A DNA stretch of 20,248 nucleotides from the IMG/VR virus record IMGVR_UViG_3300035698_008425, positions 1 to 20,248 of that record; one strand, given 5' to 3'. The translations under genes were made by a program, and so were the position numbers. This stretch comes from a virus. Under the pieces are notes generated by a model. That model was not told the origin of the DNA and did not search any database. It saw only the letters and a list, made by a program, of their open reading frames with translations. This document shows, one piece after another, positions 2,775 to 17,715 of the stretch. Within the stretch, counting starts at the first letter, position 1; every line of letters begins with the position of its first letter.

Positions 2775-3551
2775 TTATTCACCCCAATGTATATTTCTAA
2801 GAGTATAAACATCAATTGGTTCTCGTTTCATATGCTCACCTTGATTAAAGTTTGCACCTTTTTTAAGATATCCACCTAAGAAGTTTCTTCTCATTCTATT
2901 GGAATTATTTTCATCTGATCCATGAACCGTATGTGAATGTAATATTACCACTTCACCTTTTCTTAAAAACCCTTCGATTTTTCTGAAATCATGTCCTTCA
3001 GGTAATACACATGGTTTACCTCTTTCGTTTCTCCAAAATTTAGGATTAGTTTTAGTTCTTTCTTCATCCACTTCAATTGGTAGTGTTGGTAATCTATGTG
3101 AACCTTCCAAATTCCAAACTGCCCCATTTTCTTTATCATGATTATCAAGTGCTAAAGCAGTATTTACAATTTCATTGTGGTTACATCCAGTATAGAATGC
3201 ATTTTGATGCATATCTCTACCTAATTGTCCTGGTGGTTTGAAATATCCCCAAGTTTGCATTCCTACAAGTTCACCCTCCATTAGAAACTCACAAGCTTCT
3301 ATTATCTTAGGATGTGAATATAATTTTTCTATTAGTTTAGAATTTTTATGTGGATATGCTATCGGATCCCACTCTCCCCATTCTTCACCATTATCTTTGG
3401 TAGTTAATTGTCTTTGTTGACGAAGTTTTTCAAGTTCTTCGTTAATTTCATCACATTCTTCTTCTGTAAGAAGTTGTAATACAGTCCATCCTCTATACCT
3501 CCAATCGAAAGTAATTTGTTGGATTTCTTCATTTGTTAAATGGTTAAACAT
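2775..3551 (-). CDS. Phytanoyl-CoA dioxygenase (PhyH)-like protein, iron motif altered
   Basis: The 258-aa protein has the PhyH-family layout of a non-haem Fe(II)/2-oxoglutarate oxygenase: a double-stranded beta-helix core with the proximal motif at RDMHQNAFYTG (His115), ALDNHDKENGAVWNLEGSH (about 134-152), and the distal HSHTVHGSDENNSNRMRR with His210 and Arg220-222 for 2-oxoglutarate. Family members normally have HxD; here residue 117 is Asn (codon AAT), so the carboxylate ligand appears lost. PhyH-like genes are frequent in marine phages, with substrates mostly unknown. It stands alone, with a TATATTTATA motif 18 bases upstream and a strong terminator behind it. Possibly a modified or inactive enzyme, or one modifying a virion or nucleotide component. 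Confidence 0.85.
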   Translation of the reverse strand: MFNHLTNEEIQQITFDWRYRGWTVLQLLTEEECDEINEELEKLRQQRQLTTKDNGEEWGEWDPIAYPHKNSKLIEKLYSHPKIIEACEFLMEGELVGMQTWGYFKPPGQLGRDMHQNAFYTGCNHNEIVNTALALDNHDKENGAVWNLEGSHRLPTLPIEVDEERTKTNPKFWRNERGKPCVLPEGHDFRKIEGFLRKGEVVILHSHTVHGSDENNSNRMRRNFLGGYLKKGANFNQGEHMKREPIDVYTLRNIHWGE

Positions 3552-9000: not shown

Positions 9001-11769
9001 CTATCCTTGTTGGAAGTTATTAGTTGTATCTCTTCTTTGATTTTTAGTCACATATTTACCAAATTTCTGGCCATCTATTATGAAATCTTTTGGTGCAACA
9101 GTTGCTGCAATTAAGTTTTGCATTTGTGCTAACATCTCTGTTTGGTATTCGGATAAACTACCTTCTTCCAAACCACTTGCTTCTTCACTACCACCATTTT
9201 CTCCACCTAAACCAAATAGTTCTGCAACGATTGCAATTCCAGCGGATGCAGCAGCAATACCCAATAATGTTGGTAATGCAAATAATCCAGCAGCTCCTAA
9301 GAACATCAATGAACCAGCTAATCCCATAAATGCAAGAGATAATAATCCAATGGATGCAACTTTTTCTAATGTAATATTATCCATTAGAGTTACAATACTT
9401 GTAGTTACATGGTCTATAATAGTTCCAACTCCACTAAAAACACTTGTTATTATCGTTCCAAATGATTCTAATAATGGTGATAGTAAAGATAATGCATAAG
9501 TTAATGGTATTAAAGCAACACCAAGTGCTGCTAATAAACCAATTCCAATAATTGCAACTCCAGAAGTTCCACCGAATAGAGATAATCCAACTGCTAATGC
9601 TTTCAATCCGGCTCCTGCAGGAATTCCCCCAATTGCAATGGCAGCTAAACCTATTGCTCCAAGTGTCATTGCTGCAAATCCTATTGCCGCTAATATCAAG
9701 TTTCCTGCTCCTGCCGTAACAGTACCAGTTCCCATCATTCCCAATCCGATTGCTAAATTCATTAATCCTGTTCCTGCTGATGTTCCAAGTGCTGAAACTA
9801 CTGCTAAACCAGGATACGCTAATGTGAAAATCAGAAATCCTATTCCTGTTGGTATTAAGTTAAGTGCTCCAAATAATACTTTTGGTGTACCCATTTCTTT
9901 CAACCCTCCAGCTAAATCTTTTAACTTATCTCCCATTGATGGGCCTGCAACAGCATCAGGTACTTCTACGTTTTCTGCAATTGATTGTACCTTATCCGTA
10001 GCTAAATCTGCTCCTTTTTCTGCAATTGCATCTTTTCCTTGTGCTGCAATAGAACCAGCTCCATACTTACCAACTACACCATCACCAATACCCATTGCAT
10101 CACCGATTTTAATAGCAGCAGCTTTGGCTAAGTGAATAGGATACATTATTAAATGTTTTAATCCACGGCCTAATCCCCTTACCATACCACCAATAGAAGT
10201 TCCCATTGATTGTAAACCCATATTCATCTGACCGGTTGCAATTACCATGGAACCAAATCCTTTAAGACTAGAACCAAGAGGTCCAGTTGCAATAGCGGTA
10301 AGTGATTCTTTCATAGAATCAAATGTAGATAGTTGCATGGTACCATCATCATTTAACTTATCCATATTGGATGCCATTTTTTGAAGTTCATCAGTAGATA
10401 ATCCCAATGCAGCGGCTGCTGCTCTTTTTTGGAAAATATCCATTCTGTTAAATGCTTCAATACCACCCATTTGATTCAGTGCTTCTTTTACCGATGCACC
10501 TATCTTTCCTTCATATGCTAATTGTCTTGCTTTGTTAAGGTTAATATTTCTACCTAACATTGCACCCAATTCTAATTCTTTTGTAATTGATGATTCAAAA
10601 TCTAAAAGGTTATCAGTTACATTTGTTAGGGTACCCATGTTTACCCCAAGTTTAGCTGCAGCTACTGCAGCTTCTCCTATATTCTGTCCTCCTTGTGCAC
10701 CATATTCAGCAAATGCTTTTGCTGAACTAGCTACATCAGCCATAATCGCAGATGGCATTAATCCATTTGCTTTTGCCAATTGTTTGGTAGATTCGGCAAG
10801 ATTTTGTGCGGTTTCAATAGAACCACCATTTAATCTTGCAAAGTTACCAGTAAGTTGTGCCGCTTGTTCACCACTAATACCCATATTAGTAGCCATTAGG
10901 GAAGTGTTTAACTTAGTCTGAAAAGAAAGTTGTTCTATTCCACCAAATTCACTTTGTAATCCCTTAGCACTCTCTAATGCATTCGGAAAAATAGTTCCTA
11001 ATAAAGTAACTTGTGAGGTTGCACCAGTCAACCCACCTACAAAACCACCCATTTCACGAGTAGTTTTACCAAGTGCTTCCGTAATATATCCAGCTCCTAC
11101 TATCAATGAACCAACTACACCACCAACGGTTTTAGTTAGTACTGATGCAGTATCAAGTACACCACCGATTGCATCTTTAATTGATTTATAAGCAGATATT
11201 TGTTTTTCTAATTGTTCTTGCTCACCTTCAGTTAACGCAGATATATTTTTAGCAGTTTCAAATTTATTTTTTTCTATATCTAATAGATACTTAGCATCTT
11301 TACCAAGATTTTTCATAGAACCCATTTGAGATTCTATCTGTCTGATAATTTCTGCCCTTGATATTACATCTTCTGCTGATAATCCTAATAATTCTTGATT
11401 TAACGAAGCTATACTTGATAATTTAGCCTCAGTAGCAGGGTACATATCTAATCCATTTTTGGAATACTCTAATCGTTTTCTTTCAGAATCAACAAATGAT
11501 GCTTGAATACCAGTCAATCCCTTTAAAGATTGTTCTTGCTGCATTAAATCAGAAATCTGCTCTTTACTTATTGTACGAGAATTTTGGATTTGTTCGTTTA
11601 TTTCTCTTAATAATCTTACTTTTTCTTTATAGGCAGAATTTGATTTTTTAATTTCATCAGTAAGTGCACCCGTTCGTTTGACTTCATCATCAAGTATCTT
11701 TTTGGCATCATTTTTTATCGCGTTAGCATCACGCAATAGTTTATTTATTTCTGCTTGAGAGAGTGCCAT
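9001..11769 (-). CDS. Tail tape measure protein (922 aa)
   Basis: The tape measure sets tail length, fills the tube and leaves with the DNA. Visible: a charged coiled-coil N-terminal fifth (1-200), a hydrophobic segment (about 204-230), an Ala/Gly-rich middle, a long hydrophobic run (about 631-855, with several membrane-spanning-length stretches), and a short hydrophilic C-terminus (VAPKDFIIDGQKFGKYV) of the sort seen at tape measure ends. Length is typical for a myovirus. It lies 10 bases after the 69-aa gene, with AGGA upstream of ATG. Position after the chaperone genes and before the tube-end protein is diagnostic. No peptidase or lysozyme domain was seen. Confidence 0.92.
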   Translation of the reverse strand: MALSQAEINKLLRDANAIKNDAKKILDDEVKRTGALTDEIKKSNSAYKEKVRLLREINEQIQNSRTISKEQISDLMQQEQSLKGLTGIQASFVDSERKRLEYSKNGLDMYPATEAKLSSIASLNQELLGLSAEDVISRAEIIRQIESQMGSMKNLGKDAKYLLDIEKNKFETAKNISALTEGEQEQLEKQISAYKSIKDAIGGVLDTASVLTKTVGGVVGSLIVGAGYITEALGKTTREMGGFVGGLTGATSQVTLLGTIFPNALESAKGLQSEFGGIEQLSFQTKLNTSLMATNMGISGEQAAQLTGNFARLNGGSIETAQNLAESTKQLAKANGLMPSAIMADVASSAKAFAEYGAQGGQNIGEAAVAAAKLGVNMGTLTNVTDNLLDFESSITKELELGAMLGRNINLNKARQLAYEGKIGASVKEALNQMGGIEAFNRMDIFQKRAAAAALGLSTDELQKMASNMDKLNDDGTMQLSTFDSMKESLTAIATGPLGSSLKGFGSMVIATGQMNMGLQSMGTSIGGMVRGLGRGLKHLIMYPIHLAKAAAIKIGDAMGIGDGVVGKYGAGSIAAQGKDAIAEKGADLATDKVQSIAENVEVPDAVAGPSMGDKLKDLAGGLKEMGTPKVLFGALNLIPTGIGFLIFTLAYPGLAVVSALGTSAGTGLMNLAIGLGMMGTGTVTAGAGNLILAAIGFAAMTLGAIGLAAIAIGGIPAGAGLKALAVGLSLFGGTSGVAIIGIGLLAALGVALIPLTYALSLLSPLLESFGTIITSVFSGVGTIIDHVTTSIVTLMDNITLEKVASIGLLSLAFMGLAGSLMFLGAAGLFALPTLLGIAAASAGIAIVAELFGLGGENGGSEEASGLEEGSLSEYQTEMLAQMQNLIAATVAPKDFIIDGQKFGKYVTKNQRRDTTNNFQQG

Positions 11770-11779
11770 TTATATAATC

Positions 11780-11989
11780 CTATTCTAAATCTTTTAACAT
11801 TTTTTCTAATTCTTTAGCAGCTTTATCTAATTGTTCCATTTTTTTAACAATAGGAACTGGTATATCTTTTCTACTCTTAGCTTTTTGTAATGCTGCATTA
11901 GTTGCATTTGATTTTAATCCATCAAAGAATGCATCGGAAAACTTTTTGGCAGAACCAAATAATCCTTCATTTATCTTTTCTTTTGACAT
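11780..11989 (-). CDS. Small basic helical tail-module protein (69 aa)
   Basis: Not recognised. Lys/Ala-rich, with a clear C-terminal coiled coil (KKMEQLDKAAKELEKMLKDL). A strong Shine-Dalgarno, AAGGAG, lies upstream and a TATATTTATA motif 32 bases upstream, so it opens the tape measure-baseplate operon (11989 to 3579). It sits between the tail chaperone and the tape measure, 10 bases before the latter. A role with the tape measure during assembly is a reasonable guess from position and shape, without sequence evidence. Confidence 0.75.
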   Translation of the reverse strand: MSKEKINEGLFGSAKKFSDAFFDGLKSNATNAALQKAKSRKDIPVPIVKKMEQLDKAAKELEKMLKDLE

Positions 11990-12034: not shown

Positions 12035-12065
12035 AAAAAAAAAGTGAGGAAATTACTTCCTCACT
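12035..12065 (-). terminator. Intrinsic terminator after the tail chaperone unit
   Basis: AGTGAGGAA (12043-12051) pairs with TTCCTCACT (12057-12065): a perfect 9-bp stem and 5-base loop, followed on the minus strand by a run of nine U (12035-12043, the last overlapping the stem). The stop codon of the frameshifted extension (12053-12055) lies in the loop, so the hairpin also encodes the last residues. Confidence 0.85.
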
Positions 12066-12283
12066 CTTACACCAGGTCCAGAAGACTTTGATGATTTACT
12101 TTGTTTATCGTATTCTGACTTTTCTTGTTTCTTTGCATCTAAAAGTTTCTTAAAATAAAACTTTCTCCAATGGATTGGCATTGTATAAACTTCAGACCAC
12201 GTGAAACCATTTCCATAATTAACCATTTCCCATATCTGAGAATGGAGTTGAATACTATAATCACTCGGCAGGGTAAAAAAACC
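12053..12283 (-). CDS. +1-frame extension of the tail assembly chaperone (about 76 aa)
   Basis: This frame is open from just after a TAG (12284-12286) to the TAA at 12053-12055. Its product reads GFFTLPSDYSIQLHSQIWEM, then FTWSEVYTMPIHWRKFYFKK and a charged C-terminus ending GPGVRVRK. It overlaps the end of the gp26-like gene and lies +1 to it; a run of seven U at 12275-12281 allows tRNA-Phe to slip with full pairing. The fusion would be about 330 aa, ending zero frame four residues after the shift (Y-P-A-E). In many tailed phages a G/GT-type frameshifted chaperone sits exactly here, between tube and tape measure. Alternative: separate translation from internal ATGs (for example MVNYGNG or MPIHWRK). 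Confidence 0.7.
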   Translation of the reverse strand, partial: GFFTLPSDYSIQLHSQIWEMVNYGNGFTWSEVYTMPIHWRKFYFKKLLDAKKQEKSEYDKQSKSSKSSGPGVRVRK

Positions 12284-13028
12284 CTACCCCAAATGGGATA
12301 TCAAGTGCCTCCGTTTCACCAGTTATTTCTGAAGTGAATTCGTATTTTAAATCCAAATCAGGTGAAATTTGTTTCACGTGGTTTCTAATTGCTTTACTAT
12401 CCCTTGCAAGTAAATTATTTTGTACCCATTTGTTGATAAATCCTCTTTCGGTATTACCATCAACTTCATGTATCATATATCTTAAACGAGTTGATACATC
12501 TTGAGAAACAACATCTTTACCTTTGGCCAAACGATTCATAGCTTGAATATCAGCATTAATGTTCATCTCATCTTTATGAGTAAGTAATTTTATTTTAATT
12601 TTTTTCTTTGAAATGGGTAAATCTAACTCATATAAATTAGCAGAGTTAAGAATAGAGGTATCTATTTCTTTTATTTGAATTTTAGATAAATCTATTGTTA
12701 CCTTTTGAGGTTCCAATGTAAAGGGGTCTGTTACCTCTACTTGATAATCAGCACCATATCCCAAAACACGAGTTGCAAGTAAGATTGCGTTTTTATCACC
12801 AATGAAAATATCACCAATATCTAATCCAGGTTCTACAACCACAGATTCGAATAACTTATCAAGTACCACACCTTTTCTTATCAAATTTTGAGATGCAAGT
12901 ATATCTTCTTCTTTTGCAGTCATATATTTGATTTCAATTGTACCCTTTGATAATGGATGTCCTTCTGGATAAACTTTACCTTGTGATGGTAGTTCAATCA
13001 CTTCGGTAGGAAAATCGTAATTTGCCAT
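12261..13028 (-). CDS. gp26-like tail/baseplate assembly chaperone, zero frame (255 aa)
   Basis: The N-terminus VIELPSQGKVYPEGHPLSKG and then IEIKYMTAKEEDILASQNLI, VLDKLFESVVV, IGDKNAILLATRVLGYGADY match the pattern of the T4_baseplate family (T4 gp26 and marine-phage relatives). Members are encoded just before the tape measure and are thought to act in tail or hub assembly rather than stay in the virion. The C-terminal part (about 150-255) is charged and helical. The last codons GVGFFYPAE include the U7 slip run. Start: ATG at 13028 after an A-rich leader without Shine-Dalgarno; a TATATTTATA motif lies 25 bases upstream. It stands as its own transcription unit between two terminators. Confidence 0.8.
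   Translation of the reverse strand: MANYDFPTEVIELPSQGKVYPEGHPLSKGTIEIKYMTAKEEDILASQNLIRKGVVLDKLFESVVVEPGLDIGDIFIGDKNAILLATRVLGYGADYQVEVTDPFTLEPQKVTIDLSKIQIKEIDTSILNSANLYELDLPISKKKIKIKLLTHKDEMNINADIQAMNRLAKGKDVVSQDVSTRLRYMIHEVDGNTERGFINKWVQNNLLARDSKAIRNHVKQISPDLDLKYEFTSEITGETEALDIPFGVGFFYPAE
12267..12288 (-). other. Candidate frameshift (slippage) hairpin with U7 run
   Basis: On the minus strand GGTAGGGT (12281-12288) and ACCCTGCC (12267-12274) can pair as an 8-bp stem with one U-G pair and a six-U loop; seven U in a row (12275-12281) form the slip run. Zero frame reads GGG TTT TTT TAC; after +1 it reads GGG TTT TTT ACC CTG. Ribosomal +1 slippage or loss of one U by the polymerase would give the same product. 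Confidence 0.6.
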
Positions 13029-13137: not shown

Positions 13138-13626
13138 TTAGTATTCTAAAACTGCGTAATCGTAAGATAACGTTAAAGTGATATCTGAAACATCATTGGA
13201 TGCCCATTCCAACGAACCGAAGTTTGCTGATTGGATAAATGCTCCTTTGATTTTCCAATTTTCAATTTTATCACCAACTGGTCCTAACATATAGATATCT
13301 ACATCTTTTTTGTAAAAATCTGCATATCCATCTCTACCAGTTAAAGATTCATGTGAGGTTCTAATCCACTCCATTACTTGTTGTGCTCCACTTGGAACAA
13401 TTGGGTCAAATAATGTAATTTCAATATCCTGCCACTCACCTTTACCTTTTAATTGTCTTTTAACATTAATGTGGTCAAGTGTTATCTTTTCGAACGTAAT
13501 TGAAGGTCTGGTTGCAGCCTTAATAAGATAAGATTGGATTCCATCAATTTCCATGATGTATCTGTTCTTCATCTTCGGTTCGAAGTTCGTGTAGAACATA
13601 TCGTTAAATTCTAATACTTCTGCCAT
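13138..13626 (-). CDS. Tail tube protein, T4 gp19-like (162 aa)
   Basis: The tube protein stacks as rings to form the inner channel of the contractile tail. Visible: FNDMFYTNFEPKMKNRYIME near residues 7-26, IQSYLIKAATRPSITFE near 30-46, a beta-rich middle with WQDIEITLFDPIVPSG, and the C-terminal FGSLEWASNDVSDITLTLSY. Length is normal for gp19-like tubes (about 160). An AGGAG Shine-Dalgarno lies upstream. It follows the sheath gene by 51 bases and is closed by its own terminator, consistent with very high expression. Tube proteins are abundant virion components. Confidence 0.92.
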   Translation of the reverse strand: MAEVLEFNDMFYTNFEPKMKNRYIMEIDGIQSYLIKAATRPSITFEKITLDHINVKRQLKGKGEWQDIEITLFDPIVPSGAQQVMEWIRTSHESLTGRDGYADFYKKDVDIYMLGPVGDKIENWKIKGAFIQSANFGSLEWASNDVSDITLTLSYDYAVLEY

Positions 13627-13677: not shown

Positions 13678-15978
13678 TTATGCCGTAAAACTAGCACCAG
13701 TTGGTAGAATGTTGAAATCAATTACAATGAATTCAGCCGTCTTAGTAGGTTGTAAGTAAATAGCCCCTGCCAAGATGTTTCTATCGATTACATCGGGTGT
13801 GTTGTTAGATTCATCCATTACTACTCTAAAAGAGTATAATCCTTGTCTTTGTTGTATTCCTTCTAAATAAGGATTTACTGTGTTTAAGAATTTAGAACGA
13901 GTAGTTGATGTGTTTTGTTCGAATACCAAGTATCTTGATGTAGATGCGATATACTTTTTAACTTTAATCAACAATCTTCTTACGTTAATTCTATCTAAAG
14001 CAGATGCTCTATCTTGTAAGGTTTTTTGTCCGAATGCAACGATACCCTCACCTGGGAATTGTGCGATTGGGTTAATTTTTCCTTCATATAAAGTATCTCT
14101 TTCAGCGTGTGTTAATCTGTTTAGAACTGAAACTGCTCCTACAATACCACCTCTGTTTAAACCTGCGGGTGCGAACCATTCAGCTGCAACTGCATCGTTT
14201 GATGCGTATATTCCTGGCATCAATACTGATGGTGGAACTGTTGTAAGTTTGTTTGTTCTTGAATCGATTGTTTTAACCCATGGGTAGTAAGTTCCAACAT
14301 AGTTAGAATCTACTGCAGAACCTTGTTCTACTGCTAAATCAATTGAATCGTTATAATCAGTTACATCACCAATGAAGAATGCATCTTCTCTAGCTTCTAC
14401 CATATCAGTTACTTTATCAAATACGTAAGAGTGTAATCTTCTTACAACACCTGGTACAGATACTAAGTTAATATCAAAATCATCTGGATTAGATACTGAA
14501 GCAATTGCTTTTACATATGCAACTGAACCATTTTTCATTGAATTTGATAAATCAAATCCTTGTGAGTTTCCAGCTCCCCAATCTGTATCACCTGCTTTAG
14601 CAGATGCAATTGTTGGAGATATACCATCAAATCCACCTTGGAATCCAATTGTAAATTGTCTTTTGTTTACATCAGCAGAATCAGAACCAGTCAATTCGTA
14701 TGATAAAGTACTATCGAATGCAAATGCAACGTTAGAACCTACACCAGTACCATTAGGAATTGGTTTAAGGTAATTTTCGTTATCAATTTTAACTACCGAT
14801 GTTTCTAAATCAATACCACTAAAAGAAGTAGTAGATGATGCAGTGTTTGTAGAAGAACGAGTTGAAAATACTACTGCAGGTACTTCAGTTTCAGTTGTTA
14901 CTAATACAGTATTAGTATAAGCCCCATGTCCGAAAGGTCCTGCGATGATTGGGAATGAACCTTCTTCTACCGTTTCAACTCTTACGAATTGAGAACGATT
15001 AGTGTAATCACCATTGAAAGTTTGTTTTCCATTTGTATCAATAGTAACGTTTACATCACCAATAATCTTTTTGATATAATTTTGAGATGCAGGGTCCATT
15101 GTTAAGTTATTGTATGTTTCTAATACAGATTTTCTTTTATCAGTATCAGAGAATCCTCTAATCATTAATGAGAAGGTAGAATAATCAGTAGAGTTCGTTG
15201 AACCAGCTGCTTTTACGTTAAAGATAGATACTTTATACTCTTTGTTAGAGTAAGTACCATCACCTAAAGTATGTAATTTAAATAAATTACTTCTTTCACC
15301 TGAAATTAATTGAGATTGAATCCAAGGAGTAGATGCGTGTTGAATATCAAAACTAAAATCTTGTTCTGGCATTGTTTCTAAAACTATCTGTCCTCCTGCA
15401 AGTAACTCATCTGATTGATTAGTTGCTGCTGATTCATAGTAGTTGTAAACATATGCATTTTTAGAACCTCTTGCATTCTCACCGAATACATCAGATAAAT
15501 CGTTACCAGCAGATGGTAAGATAGATGCAGATAATTCAGTTCCTAATTCAGAACCACTAATTGAGAATACAGATGCAGATGGTTGAGAATCAATAACAGT
15601 ACTTGGTAAACCTACTGATTCATCGCCTTTATGTGTTACATTAAGAGTTCCCACAACTTGTATACCAGTTGAACCACTTACTTTAATTGCAATTGGGTCA
15701 ACGTGAGAATAACCACCAACGTGTCCAACACGAACGATAGTTACTGTTCCAGCTTCTCTTAAATAATTTTGTACGGTATATCCCGTATAGTATGAACCAT
15801 CGGGTGTACCGAATATTGATTCGAATTCCGATTGGGTATTTACTACCGTTGGTACAAATGCCGGCCCTTTATGGAAAGGTCCTATAATTGCTGCTCCGAT
15901 TTCCCCAATACCTTGTGATAAGAAAGAAAGGTCATTTTCTCTCGTAAATACACCAGGTGATACAATCTTTTCTGCCAT
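13678..15978 (-). CDS. Contractile tail sheath protein (766 aa)
   Basis: The sheath contracts to drive the tube through the cell envelope. The N-terminus EKIVSPGVFTRENDLSFLSQ and IGAAIIGPFHKGPAFVPTVV are typical of sheaths, as are RVGHVGG near 82-88, the conserved C-terminal RINVRRLLIKVKKYI, NPYLEGIQQRQGLYSFRVVM and AEFIVIDFNILPTGASF. The middle (about 100-500) is a variable, Ser/Thr-rich, surface-exposed part that makes the protein longer than minimal sheaths. An AAGGAG Shine-Dalgarno precedes the ATG. It leads the sheath-tube-chaperone block, each gene with its own promoter motif. Confidence 0.95.
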   Translation of the reverse strand: MAEKIVSPGVFTRENDLSFLSQGIGEIGAAIIGPFHKGPAFVPTVVNTQSEFESIFGTPDGSYYTGYTVQNYLREAGTVTIVRVGHVGGYSHVDPIAIKVSGSTGIQVVGTLNVTHKGDESVGLPSTVIDSQPSASVFSISGSELGTELSASILPSAGNDLSDVFGENARGSKNAYVYNYYESAATNQSDELLAGGQIVLETMPEQDFSFDIQHASTPWIQSQLISGERSNLFKLHTLGDGTYSNKEYKVSIFNVKAAGSTNSTDYSTFSLMIRGFSDTDKRKSVLETYNNLTMDPASQNYIKKIIGDVNVTIDTNGKQTFNGDYTNRSQFVRVETVEEGSFPIIAGPFGHGAYTNTVLVTTETEVPAVVFSTRSSTNTASSTTSFSGIDLETSVVKIDNENYLKPIPNGTGVGSNVAFAFDSTLSYELTGSDSADVNKRQFTIGFQGGFDGISPTIASAKAGDTDWGAGNSQGFDLSNSMKNGSVAYVKAIASVSNPDDFDINLVSVPGVVRRLHSYVFDKVTDMVEAREDAFFIGDVTDYNDSIDLAVEQGSAVDSNYVGTYYPWVKTIDSRTNKLTTVPPSVLMPGIYASNDAVAAEWFAPAGLNRGGIVGAVSVLNRLTHAERDTLYEGKINPIAQFPGEGIVAFGQKTLQDRASALDRINVRRLLIKVKKYIASTSRYLVFEQNTSTTRSKFLNTVNPYLEGIQQRQGLYSFRVVMDESNNTPDVIDRNILAGAIYLQPTKTAEFIVIDFNILPTGASFTA

Positions 15979-16425: not shown

Positions 16426-17715
16426 TTAATTTTCAAATGTATGAGAGAATGTTAATGTAGATGAAAATACCCCATACACACCCATTTCTCTTGCCCTTAC
16501 TCTAGCATACCAAGTTCCAGTTGAAAGACCTGATACATTTAATGAGGTTGTACTAAATGTGCCTGAGTGTGTTACATCAGGTGATGAAAAATCAGAGTTA
16601 TTATCAACATCTAAATCATAATCAGTTACACCAGTAGTACCAGTTGCGGCCGGAGTTGTCCAACTTAAATTAGAGTTTTGAGCACCAGCTGGGTTATTAT
16701 ACGTAATGGTTGGTGCAGAAGGTCCTGCAAAATCACTAAAAGTATCACCACCTTTATTGTGGGTAATATATCCATTTACTAAGTAAGTATCTTCTTGTTC
16801 TACATCAATAGATACAATTTCAACTGTCTTATTAGTTATATCAATTGAAGTTACATTAACTTCAAGTAATGAACTACCATTTTGTTTAATTAATTTATCA
16901 CCAATTACCAAATTGTGTAATTCTTTAAATCTATATAAACCATCTACTGAATCTTTTACCAACATTGGGTGGTCTGCTGTTCCTGTAATTTCACCATCAT
17001 TTACATTATAATATCTTGATGCAAATGAATACGTAAGATTAGTTACAACAACATCTTTAGATACTTCACCTAATTCTGAAGATGACCATTTTAAGAAATC
17101 ACTATCAGAATCTTGTCCTAATCCAGATAATGAATAACCTTTTAAGATATCACCTTCTTCCAAATCCCCTGCATCTATGATTTGACCATCTGCCAAAAGA
17201 ATTGGTGAATCTGCAGTTAAACATAATGCAGCTGAGTTACCATCATACGAATCTACTGAATATATAGTTTTATCTTTATTTGTTCCCAATCCAGATGCAT
17301 CTCCATTATTAAGATTAAATGGTTCACTATAAGATACTCTTAGTGTATTTGAAGCAACAGCCAATCTAGTATCTGTGTTTGCTCTATTTGAGAATGTTAT
17401 TGTTGCTGTTTTATTTGGTGAAGCACCAATACTAATTGTTGTTCCAGCTGCAACCGACCAAGTAAAGTTTGGTGTATAACTAGCTAATCTACCATCATGG
17501 TTTCCCCCTGCTCCACTAAAAGATAGTGTGTAATTTTCAGAGGTATTTTCCACACCATAGGTGAAACCGCTGATTGAACCAACCGAAGTGATTGCGAACG
17601 ATGAAAAACTAATGTTTGAACCCGCAGATGGTGTTGAACCCATTACATCTGAAATTGTTGCAGTAGTTGCTGCTGATGAATCTCTGAGGTTTGCTAATGA
17701 TAAATTTGTTGCCAT
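16426..17715 (-). CDS. Structural protein with embedded Hint (intein-like) domain and fibronectin III-like domain (429 aa)
   Basis: Three parts are visible. Residues about 1-160 are Ser/Thr/Gly-rich and beta-like. Residues 165-320 form a Hint domain: Cys165 in CLTADSPILLADGQ, GDLEEGDILKGYS, the TxxH motif in GTADHPMLVKDS (Thr246, His249), and the end YLVNGYITHN (His319, Asn320). Residues 331-429 look like a fibronectin type III module (SAPTITYNNP, NLSWTTPAA, LSTGTWYARVRARE). Residue 321 is Lys, not Cys/Ser/Thr, so full splicing is unlikely, but cleavage at either end is possible. No homing endonuclease insert. AGGAAAG precedes the ATG. Its place beside fibre and tail genes suggests a virion surface or fibre-associated protein. 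Confidence 0.8.
   Translation of the reverse strand: MATNLSLANLRDSSAATTATISDVMGSTPSAGSNISFSSFAITSVGSISGFTYGVENTSENYTLSFSGAGGNHDGRLASYTPNFTWSVAAGTTISIGASPNKTATITFSNRANTDTRLAVASNTLRVSYSEPFNLNNGDASGLGTNKDKTIYSVDSYDGNSAALCLTADSPILLADGQIIDAGDLEEGDILKGYSLSGLGQDSDSDFLKWSSSELGEVSKDVVVTNLTYSFASRYYNVNDGEITGTADHPMLVKDSVDGLYRFKELHNLVIGDKLIKQNGSSLLEVNVTSIDITNKTVEIVSIDVEQEDTYLVNGYITHNKGGDTFSDFAGPSAPTITYNNPAGAQNSNLSWTTPAATGTTGVTDYDLDVDNNSDFSSPDVTHSGTFSTTSLNVSGLSTGTWYARVRAREMGVYGVFSSTLTFSHTFEN

Follow-up and report, generated by a model that had tools for sequence, protein, structure and literature searches.

A gp26-like tail chaperone gene probably read in two frames through a +1 slip site in phages related to T4

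Comparative analysis strongly supports the view that a gene for a gp26-like tail assembly chaperone, present on a 20,248-nt stretch of viral DNA (IMG/VR virus record IMGVR_UViG_3300035698_008425, positions 1 to 20,248; hereafter the window), very probably yields two products, a short chaperone and a longer form reached by a +1 shift. Frameshifting of tail chaperones is classical. An earlier note based on the letters of the window had interpreted the gene as a +1 frameshifted tail chaperone, and this interpretation is supported by the sequence comparisons presented here. These establish that the two-frame layout and the slip element are conserved, that the extension is under selection and where the gene lies; production of the fusion, the exact slip codon, the product ratio and the function are inferred from them.

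Layout of the two-frame gene and proposed decoding

All genes of this region lie on the minus strand of the 20.2-kb contig, in the order sheath, tube, gp26-like gene, +1 extension, a small open reading frame (ORF) and tape measure. The tail sheath protein (13678..15978) matches PF17482 and PF04984, and the tail tube protein gp19 (13138..13626) matches PF06841 (E 6e-11) and PHROG 4542 (E 2e-30). Downstream of the chaperone gene, the ORF list contains a 69-aa frame (11780..11989), followed by a 922-aa protein (9001..11769) that we assign as the tape measure protein because tblastn aligns it with the protein annotated as tape measure in Flavobacterium phage immuto (26% identity, E 8e-17). The chaperone gene is therefore situated between the tube and tape measure genes, as the earlier note had proposed, with the 69-aa ORF intervening before the latter. 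ORFs of about 65-85 aa are found at the site of this small ORF in most of the checked loci of the window's clade, and no counterpart was seen at that place in the checked loci of the immuto group. Elsewhere on the minus strand, the window encodes a 429-aa fn3-like protein (16426-17715) with an inserted Hint/intein-like segment (CLTADSPILLADG...YLVNGYITHNKGG), whose matches to PF07591 PT-HINT (E 0.0014) and fn3 (E 3e-4) are both under their cutoffs, and a protein of the Phytanoyl-CoA dioxygenase (PhyH) family (2775-3551; E 1e-18).

The gp26-like frame (12261..13028, minus strand) spans 255 codons and terminates at a TGA (12263-12261), its 3' end being GGG TTT TTT TAC CCT GCC GAG TGA; both its length and its end just past a run of seven U, located exactly at 12275-12281, agree with the earlier description. 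The same holds for the 76-codon +1 frame, GFFTLPSDYS...VRVRK, which directly follows its own stop codon, a TAG, and then remains open up to a TAA at 12055-12053. With one base skipped, the protein would continue F F T L P S D Y S ... V R V R K; the part of this frame read after the slip amounts to 74 codons (12056..12277, minus strand; FTLPSDYSIQLHSQIWEMVNYGNGFTWSEVYTMPIHWRKFYFKKL...). The TAA is embedded in a hairpin of 13 pairs followed by a T run (12035..12068, minus strand), which resembles an intrinsic terminator and matches the terminator that had been noted at the end of the extension.

According to the decoding scheme that we propose, most ribosomes would terminate at the UGA and produce the 255-aa short form (TAC-N, gp26-like), and a minority would skip a single base within the U run, as the tRNA-Phe in the P site re-pairs from UUU onto the overlapping UUU (UUC in some relatives). 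In the window, the slip could occur after either of the two UUU codons. Slipped ribosomes would then read the +1 frame and yield the long form (TAC-NC), which would end in a small helical domain and is predicted to be 324 aa in length (250 + 74), slightly shorter than the figure of about 330 aa given before, with GVGFFTLP as the expected junction peptide (sequence ...GVGFFTLPSDYS). This C-terminal domain would correspond to the T domain of lambda and to the final part of T4 gp51. If the pair functions as gpG and gpGT do in lambda, the tape measure protein may be coated by the short form, and tail tube subunits may be recruited by the long one.

Conservation of the arrangement and of its coding signature

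Relatives were collected by scanning IMG/VR with the window's gp26-like protein, which gave 80 loci (48-79% identity), and with gp26 of Flavobacterium phage immuto, which gave 80 more. Each set contains 79 loci that reach the gene end, and in all of them (79/79 and 79/79) the +1 frame remains open through the point where gp26 terminates. Seven records of the phage collection are alike in this respect: Microcystis phage Mel-JY01, Flavobacterium phage immuto, Bacillus phage SP-15, Rhodothermus phage RM378, Streptococcus phage GXN1, Listeria phage LIS04 and the uncultured LR756508, the first six of these being isolates. The same pair of frames, which the earlier note had suggested looking for in related phages, is thus present at all 165 other complete junctions, and no relative without an open +1 frame was found in this clade. 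At each of these 165 junctions, which represent 142 distinct gp26 proteins, an in-frame TTT followed by T or C lies near the end of the gp26 frame, and from it the +1 frame is open; it must be kept in mind that the slip codon was defined by the search itself, so that 165/165 means that such a site always exists and does not reflect an independent choice. The nine-base sites of these relatives are TTTTTTTGG (75), TTTTTTTAC (45), TTTCTTTGG (35) and TTTCTATGG (4), together with six single variants.

When the window and a duplicate of SP-15 are counted, 167 extensions are available, 158 of which are complete and have 65-106 codons; the other 9 end at contig ends, and none of the 167 contains a premature stop. 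This conservation is essential to the argument, because 14% of random starts in the window stay open for at least 72 codons, and the open frame of the window alone hence proves nothing. Only the finding that 165 relatives keep the frame open, with not a single premature stop among them, excludes a chance origin. With respect to detection, tblastn with the extension as query recovered a single phage record, LR756508, the gp26 proteins of SP-15 and GXN1 used as queries found only themselves or one distant relative, and the mixed alignment A1 offered no stretch conserved enough for scanning. Where the extension would be encoded, the deposited annotations have short hypothetical proteins of 36 (L083:4836-4946), 78 (L082:4740-4976) and 39 aa (L084:3821-3940), and in none of them are the two frames joined.

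The extension is also under purifying selection, for which the earlier note had proposed a test: the median dN/dS is 0.20 for the part past the gp26 stop and 0.16 for the gp26 part, values that are approximate because many pairs are close to saturation at synonymous sites. Conservation in the +1 frame sets in at the slip point, upstream of which this frame is closed at a median distance of 8 codons. Codon usage at the slip region was analysed in 96 non-redundant sequences, with the remainder of the same genes as background. For the second Phe, TTT is used in 74/74 cases against a background of 74.6% (product of chances 4e-10, a figure that ignores relatedness), the Tyr codon after the run is TAC in 34/34 (background 26%), and the Pro codon is CCT in 93/95 (background 35%), CCT being the codon that yields Leu in the +1 frame. 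Such constraints are what one would expect of a sequence translated in both frames from precisely this position.

Nature of the slip and alternative readings

The earlier note had also suggested looking for a conserved U run, a point that can be refined. The slip region is kept, in that UUU followed by U or C occurs in 165/165 relatives, but the run of seven itself is not essential, since 45 of the 165 lack it. What all sites have in common is that the triplet overlapping UUU in the +1 frame is UUU or UUC, both decoded by tRNA-Phe. A +1 slip of the P-site tRNA-Phe accounts for every variant, including UUUCUAU, where a slip on the following codon would not pair.

These variants bear on two of the alternatives. 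Transcriptional slippage on the T7 run would generate mixed mRNAs, from which standard translation would yield the fusion; T7 is present in 120/165 relatives, and a hairpin-like element lies directly upstream. However, the 45 relatives with broken or shorter runs (UUUCUUUGG, UUUCUAUGG, UUUUACCC, UUUUUUCAC, UUUCGUCCC) have the same open +1 frame and extension, and it is UUU followed by U or C, and not the homopolymer, that is universal. The dispensability of U7 argues against transcriptional slippage as the general route, which we regard as very improbable, and favours instead the re-pairing of a P-site tRNA-Phe from UUU onto UUY. A -2 shift would lead into the same frame as a +1 shift; on U7 it would keep pairing and add one Phe (GVGFFFTLP), and in other viruses GUU_UUU is known as a site of -2 shifts that look like +1 (PMC10885494). 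As judged by reading the sequences, however, the UUUCUUUGG and UUUCUAUGG classes (UUUC) allow no cognate re-pairing at -2, whereas UUU to UUC at +1 is perfect, leaving the -2 shift with a similarly slight probability.

Two further alternatives concern the gene itself. The extension might be a separate gene, overlapping or following gp26 and translated from its own internal start. Gp51 of cyanophage S-PM2 is annotated as a gene of its own with an ATG, the downstream ORF of one huge-phage relative (L182) has GGAG seven bases ahead of its ATG, and in the window an ATG at 12226 could begin a 57-aa protein. Against this, the conserved part begins at the slip point in the window's clade, the first ATG lies past codon 20 in 63 of the 167 extensions and is missing altogether in 14, and sequences resembling a Shine-Dalgarno motif are rare, being found at only 10/167 first possible start codons; nor would constraints on codons in two frames be expected at the slip site of such a gene. 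A stand-alone start with a Shine-Dalgarno sequence, named in advance as a finding that would speak against frameshifting, is not conserved anywhere in this clade, and we give a separate gene little credence, as little as the two preceding alternatives. Finally, the frame break could be a sequencing or assembly error, homopolymers being error-prone and the window being a single metagenome contig. The same frame relation in 165 others, with 142 distinct gp26 proteins and complete isolate genomes among them, refutes this reading, so that the error in the U run against which the earlier note had cautioned is excluded by isolates and many contigs, and its probability is close to nil. The preferred reading is a +1 ribosomal shift on the slip codon.

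As to elements that may assist the +1 shift, no stimulatory RNA structure was found downstream of the slip (mean z -0.75, empty consensus). Directly 5' of the slip site, the sequence AUCCC-AUUU-GGGGU, with G-rich codons, may form a short hairpin in the window (12285..12300, minus strand), and the corresponding AUCCC-NNNN-GGGRU of the relatives could fold as a five-pair hairpin. The Gly codon at -9 is GGG in 53/88 cases, compared with 6.8% elsewhere, and GGG is again frequent at -3. The only pair of this hairpin that joins two third codon positions covaries (CG 22, UG 8, UA 7, AU 6), with 86% of cells paired versus 31-53% in slid controls; the covariation score was reached in 4 of 500 shuffles, relatedness being uncontrolled. 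The segment would be covered by a ribosome positioned at the slip site, and an association of this upstream hairpin or G-rich element with slipping is suggestive only. The hairpin at 12285-12300 together with the T run also resembles a terminator.

Relation to gp26 and gp51 and comparison with known systems

The window's gp26-like protein matches PF12322 (T4_baseplate; E 2e-7, 31.4 bits against a curated cutoff of 24.5) and the baseplate hub family PHROG 150 (E 5e-13). PF12322 also covers T4 gp26 (E 9e-64) and T4 gp51 (E 4e-52), the latter consisting of a gp26-like domain and about 48 further residues, and T4 gp26 and gp51 thus resemble a short and a long form, each encoded by a gene of its own. 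AF2 models were computed separately for gp26 and for the extension, from alignments that left out the phage-collection rows. The gp26 model (mean pLDDT 88) resembles T4-like baseplate hub (assembly) proteins among the BFVD viral models, for example that of SP-15 (E 2e-18). Foldseek found no significant match for it in the PDB, and the top solved structure with VIA-align is the HK97 tail assembly chaperone 2ob9_A (Z 5.5, next row 3.3; 96 aligned residues of a 107-residue chain, rmsd 4.9), at a Z below the level that excludes common folds; this match between a predicted model and a structure agrees with a chaperone fold, and may also reflect a common arrangement. The extension is modelled as three helices (mean pLDDT 81). 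Searches with the extension alone gave nothing significant among viral models and weak matches only in Pfam (DUF6760 in 4 of 40 members, best E 0.003), and the fusion profile had no match to PDB sequences at E 1.

Profile comparisons connect the extension to other C-terminal parts of the family. It matches the Bacillus-type extension (93%, E 2e-7), the LR756511-type set (95%, E 3e-8) and cyanophage gp51 (88%, E 3e-6), part of this last link stemming from K/E-rich helices, and cyanophage gp51 in turn matches the T4 gp51 tail (98%, E 2e-14). The direct comparison of the extension with the T4 gp51 tail was not significant (E 0.04-0.23), and the pooled profile matches this tail at 96% (E 1e-8).

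In S-PM2, gp26 precedes a 57-aa gp51, which is followed by a large gene at the position of the tape measure. A scan with S-PM2 gp26 yielded 80 loci, one of which is S-PM2 again, so that this phage is counted twice among the 81 cyanophage-type loci. All 81 (L194:4472-5364 and L195-L274) have T_TTT_TTC in the -1 phase ten bases ahead of the gp26 stop, and their -1 frame continues into gp51 without a stop. Several of these junctions are without any ATG for gp51. The invariant U_UUU_UUC, the open -1 frame and the several junctions lacking an ATG suggest that the cyanophage gp51, annotated as separate, is probably a -1 frameshift extension of gp26. The huge-phage LR756511 and three relatives, as well as L185 (together L089, L182-L185), likewise have an in-phase T_TTT_TTC and a -1 frame open into the T-like domain. 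In L182 and L183 of this set, GGAG ahead of an ATG is present as well, and both routes are possible there.

With respect to earlier work, chaperone shifts in the +1 direction are already known: the shift in the HSTV-2 chaperone is very likely +1 (PMC5009743), and the training set of PRFect includes 350 cases of forward slip sites. T4 has long been listed as an exception to tail chaperone frameshifting (PMC5009743). The chaperones of T4-like phages were reportedly identified by Vladimirov, Gautam and Davidson (Virology 2022), and the PRFect authors cite Vladimirov et al. 2022 for T4-like phages with one short and one fused copy. What looks new here is that a large branch of the T4-type gene, mostly from uncultured phages, has the +1 UUU-U/C site, and that the direction apparently differs within one family. 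The abstract of the study by Vladimirov and colleagues reportedly names genes 26 and 51, and frameshifting is said to be kept in several T4-like groups.

Tail chaperone frameshifting is among the best conserved recoding events of phages, and a family in which a +1 shift, a -1 shift and two genes apparently serve the same end would be a natural experiment on the evolution of shift direction and product ratio. The +1 slip site also comes with an unusually large comparative data set, and annotation would be corrected, as the conserved domain is mostly absent or cut short in deposited genomes. We moderately favour the view that one chaperone family makes the same pair of products by clade-specific decoding: +1 on UUU-U/C in Flavobacterium, Microcystis, Bacillus and uncultured phages, -1 on U_UUU_UUC in cyanophage-type and some huge-phage relatives, and two genes in T4, the +1 site being without an adjacent stop or downstream structure and perhaps relying on the small upstream hairpin or G-rich element, a type of +1 signal that has been little studied.

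A close functional parallel is the gpG/gpGT pair of lambda (Xu, Hendrix, Duda; reviewed in PMC5009743), which is likewise encoded between the tail tube and tape measure genes and in which the long form carries an added small C-terminal domain. In lambda the shift is -1, whereas the window gene would shift +1 on UUU-U/C and has an N-terminal part belonging to the T4 gp26 family. PF12322 is common to the window protein, T4 gp26 and T4 gp51, and the build of gp51 matches the predicted long form, but T4 uses two genes where the window would use one gene and a shift. Cyanophages of the S-PM2 type have gp26, a T-like gp51 in another frame and a large gene in the tape-measure position, but with a -1 architecture. 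With regard to mechanism, a close known case is prfB (release factor 2), whose +1 shift occurs at CUU_U, or at UUU_U in a minority of species (PMC5009743), with the P-site tRNA moving onto UUU and a G-rich sequence upstream, as is proposed here; unlike in prfB, the slip codon in the window has no stop codon in the A site, the stop following several codons on.
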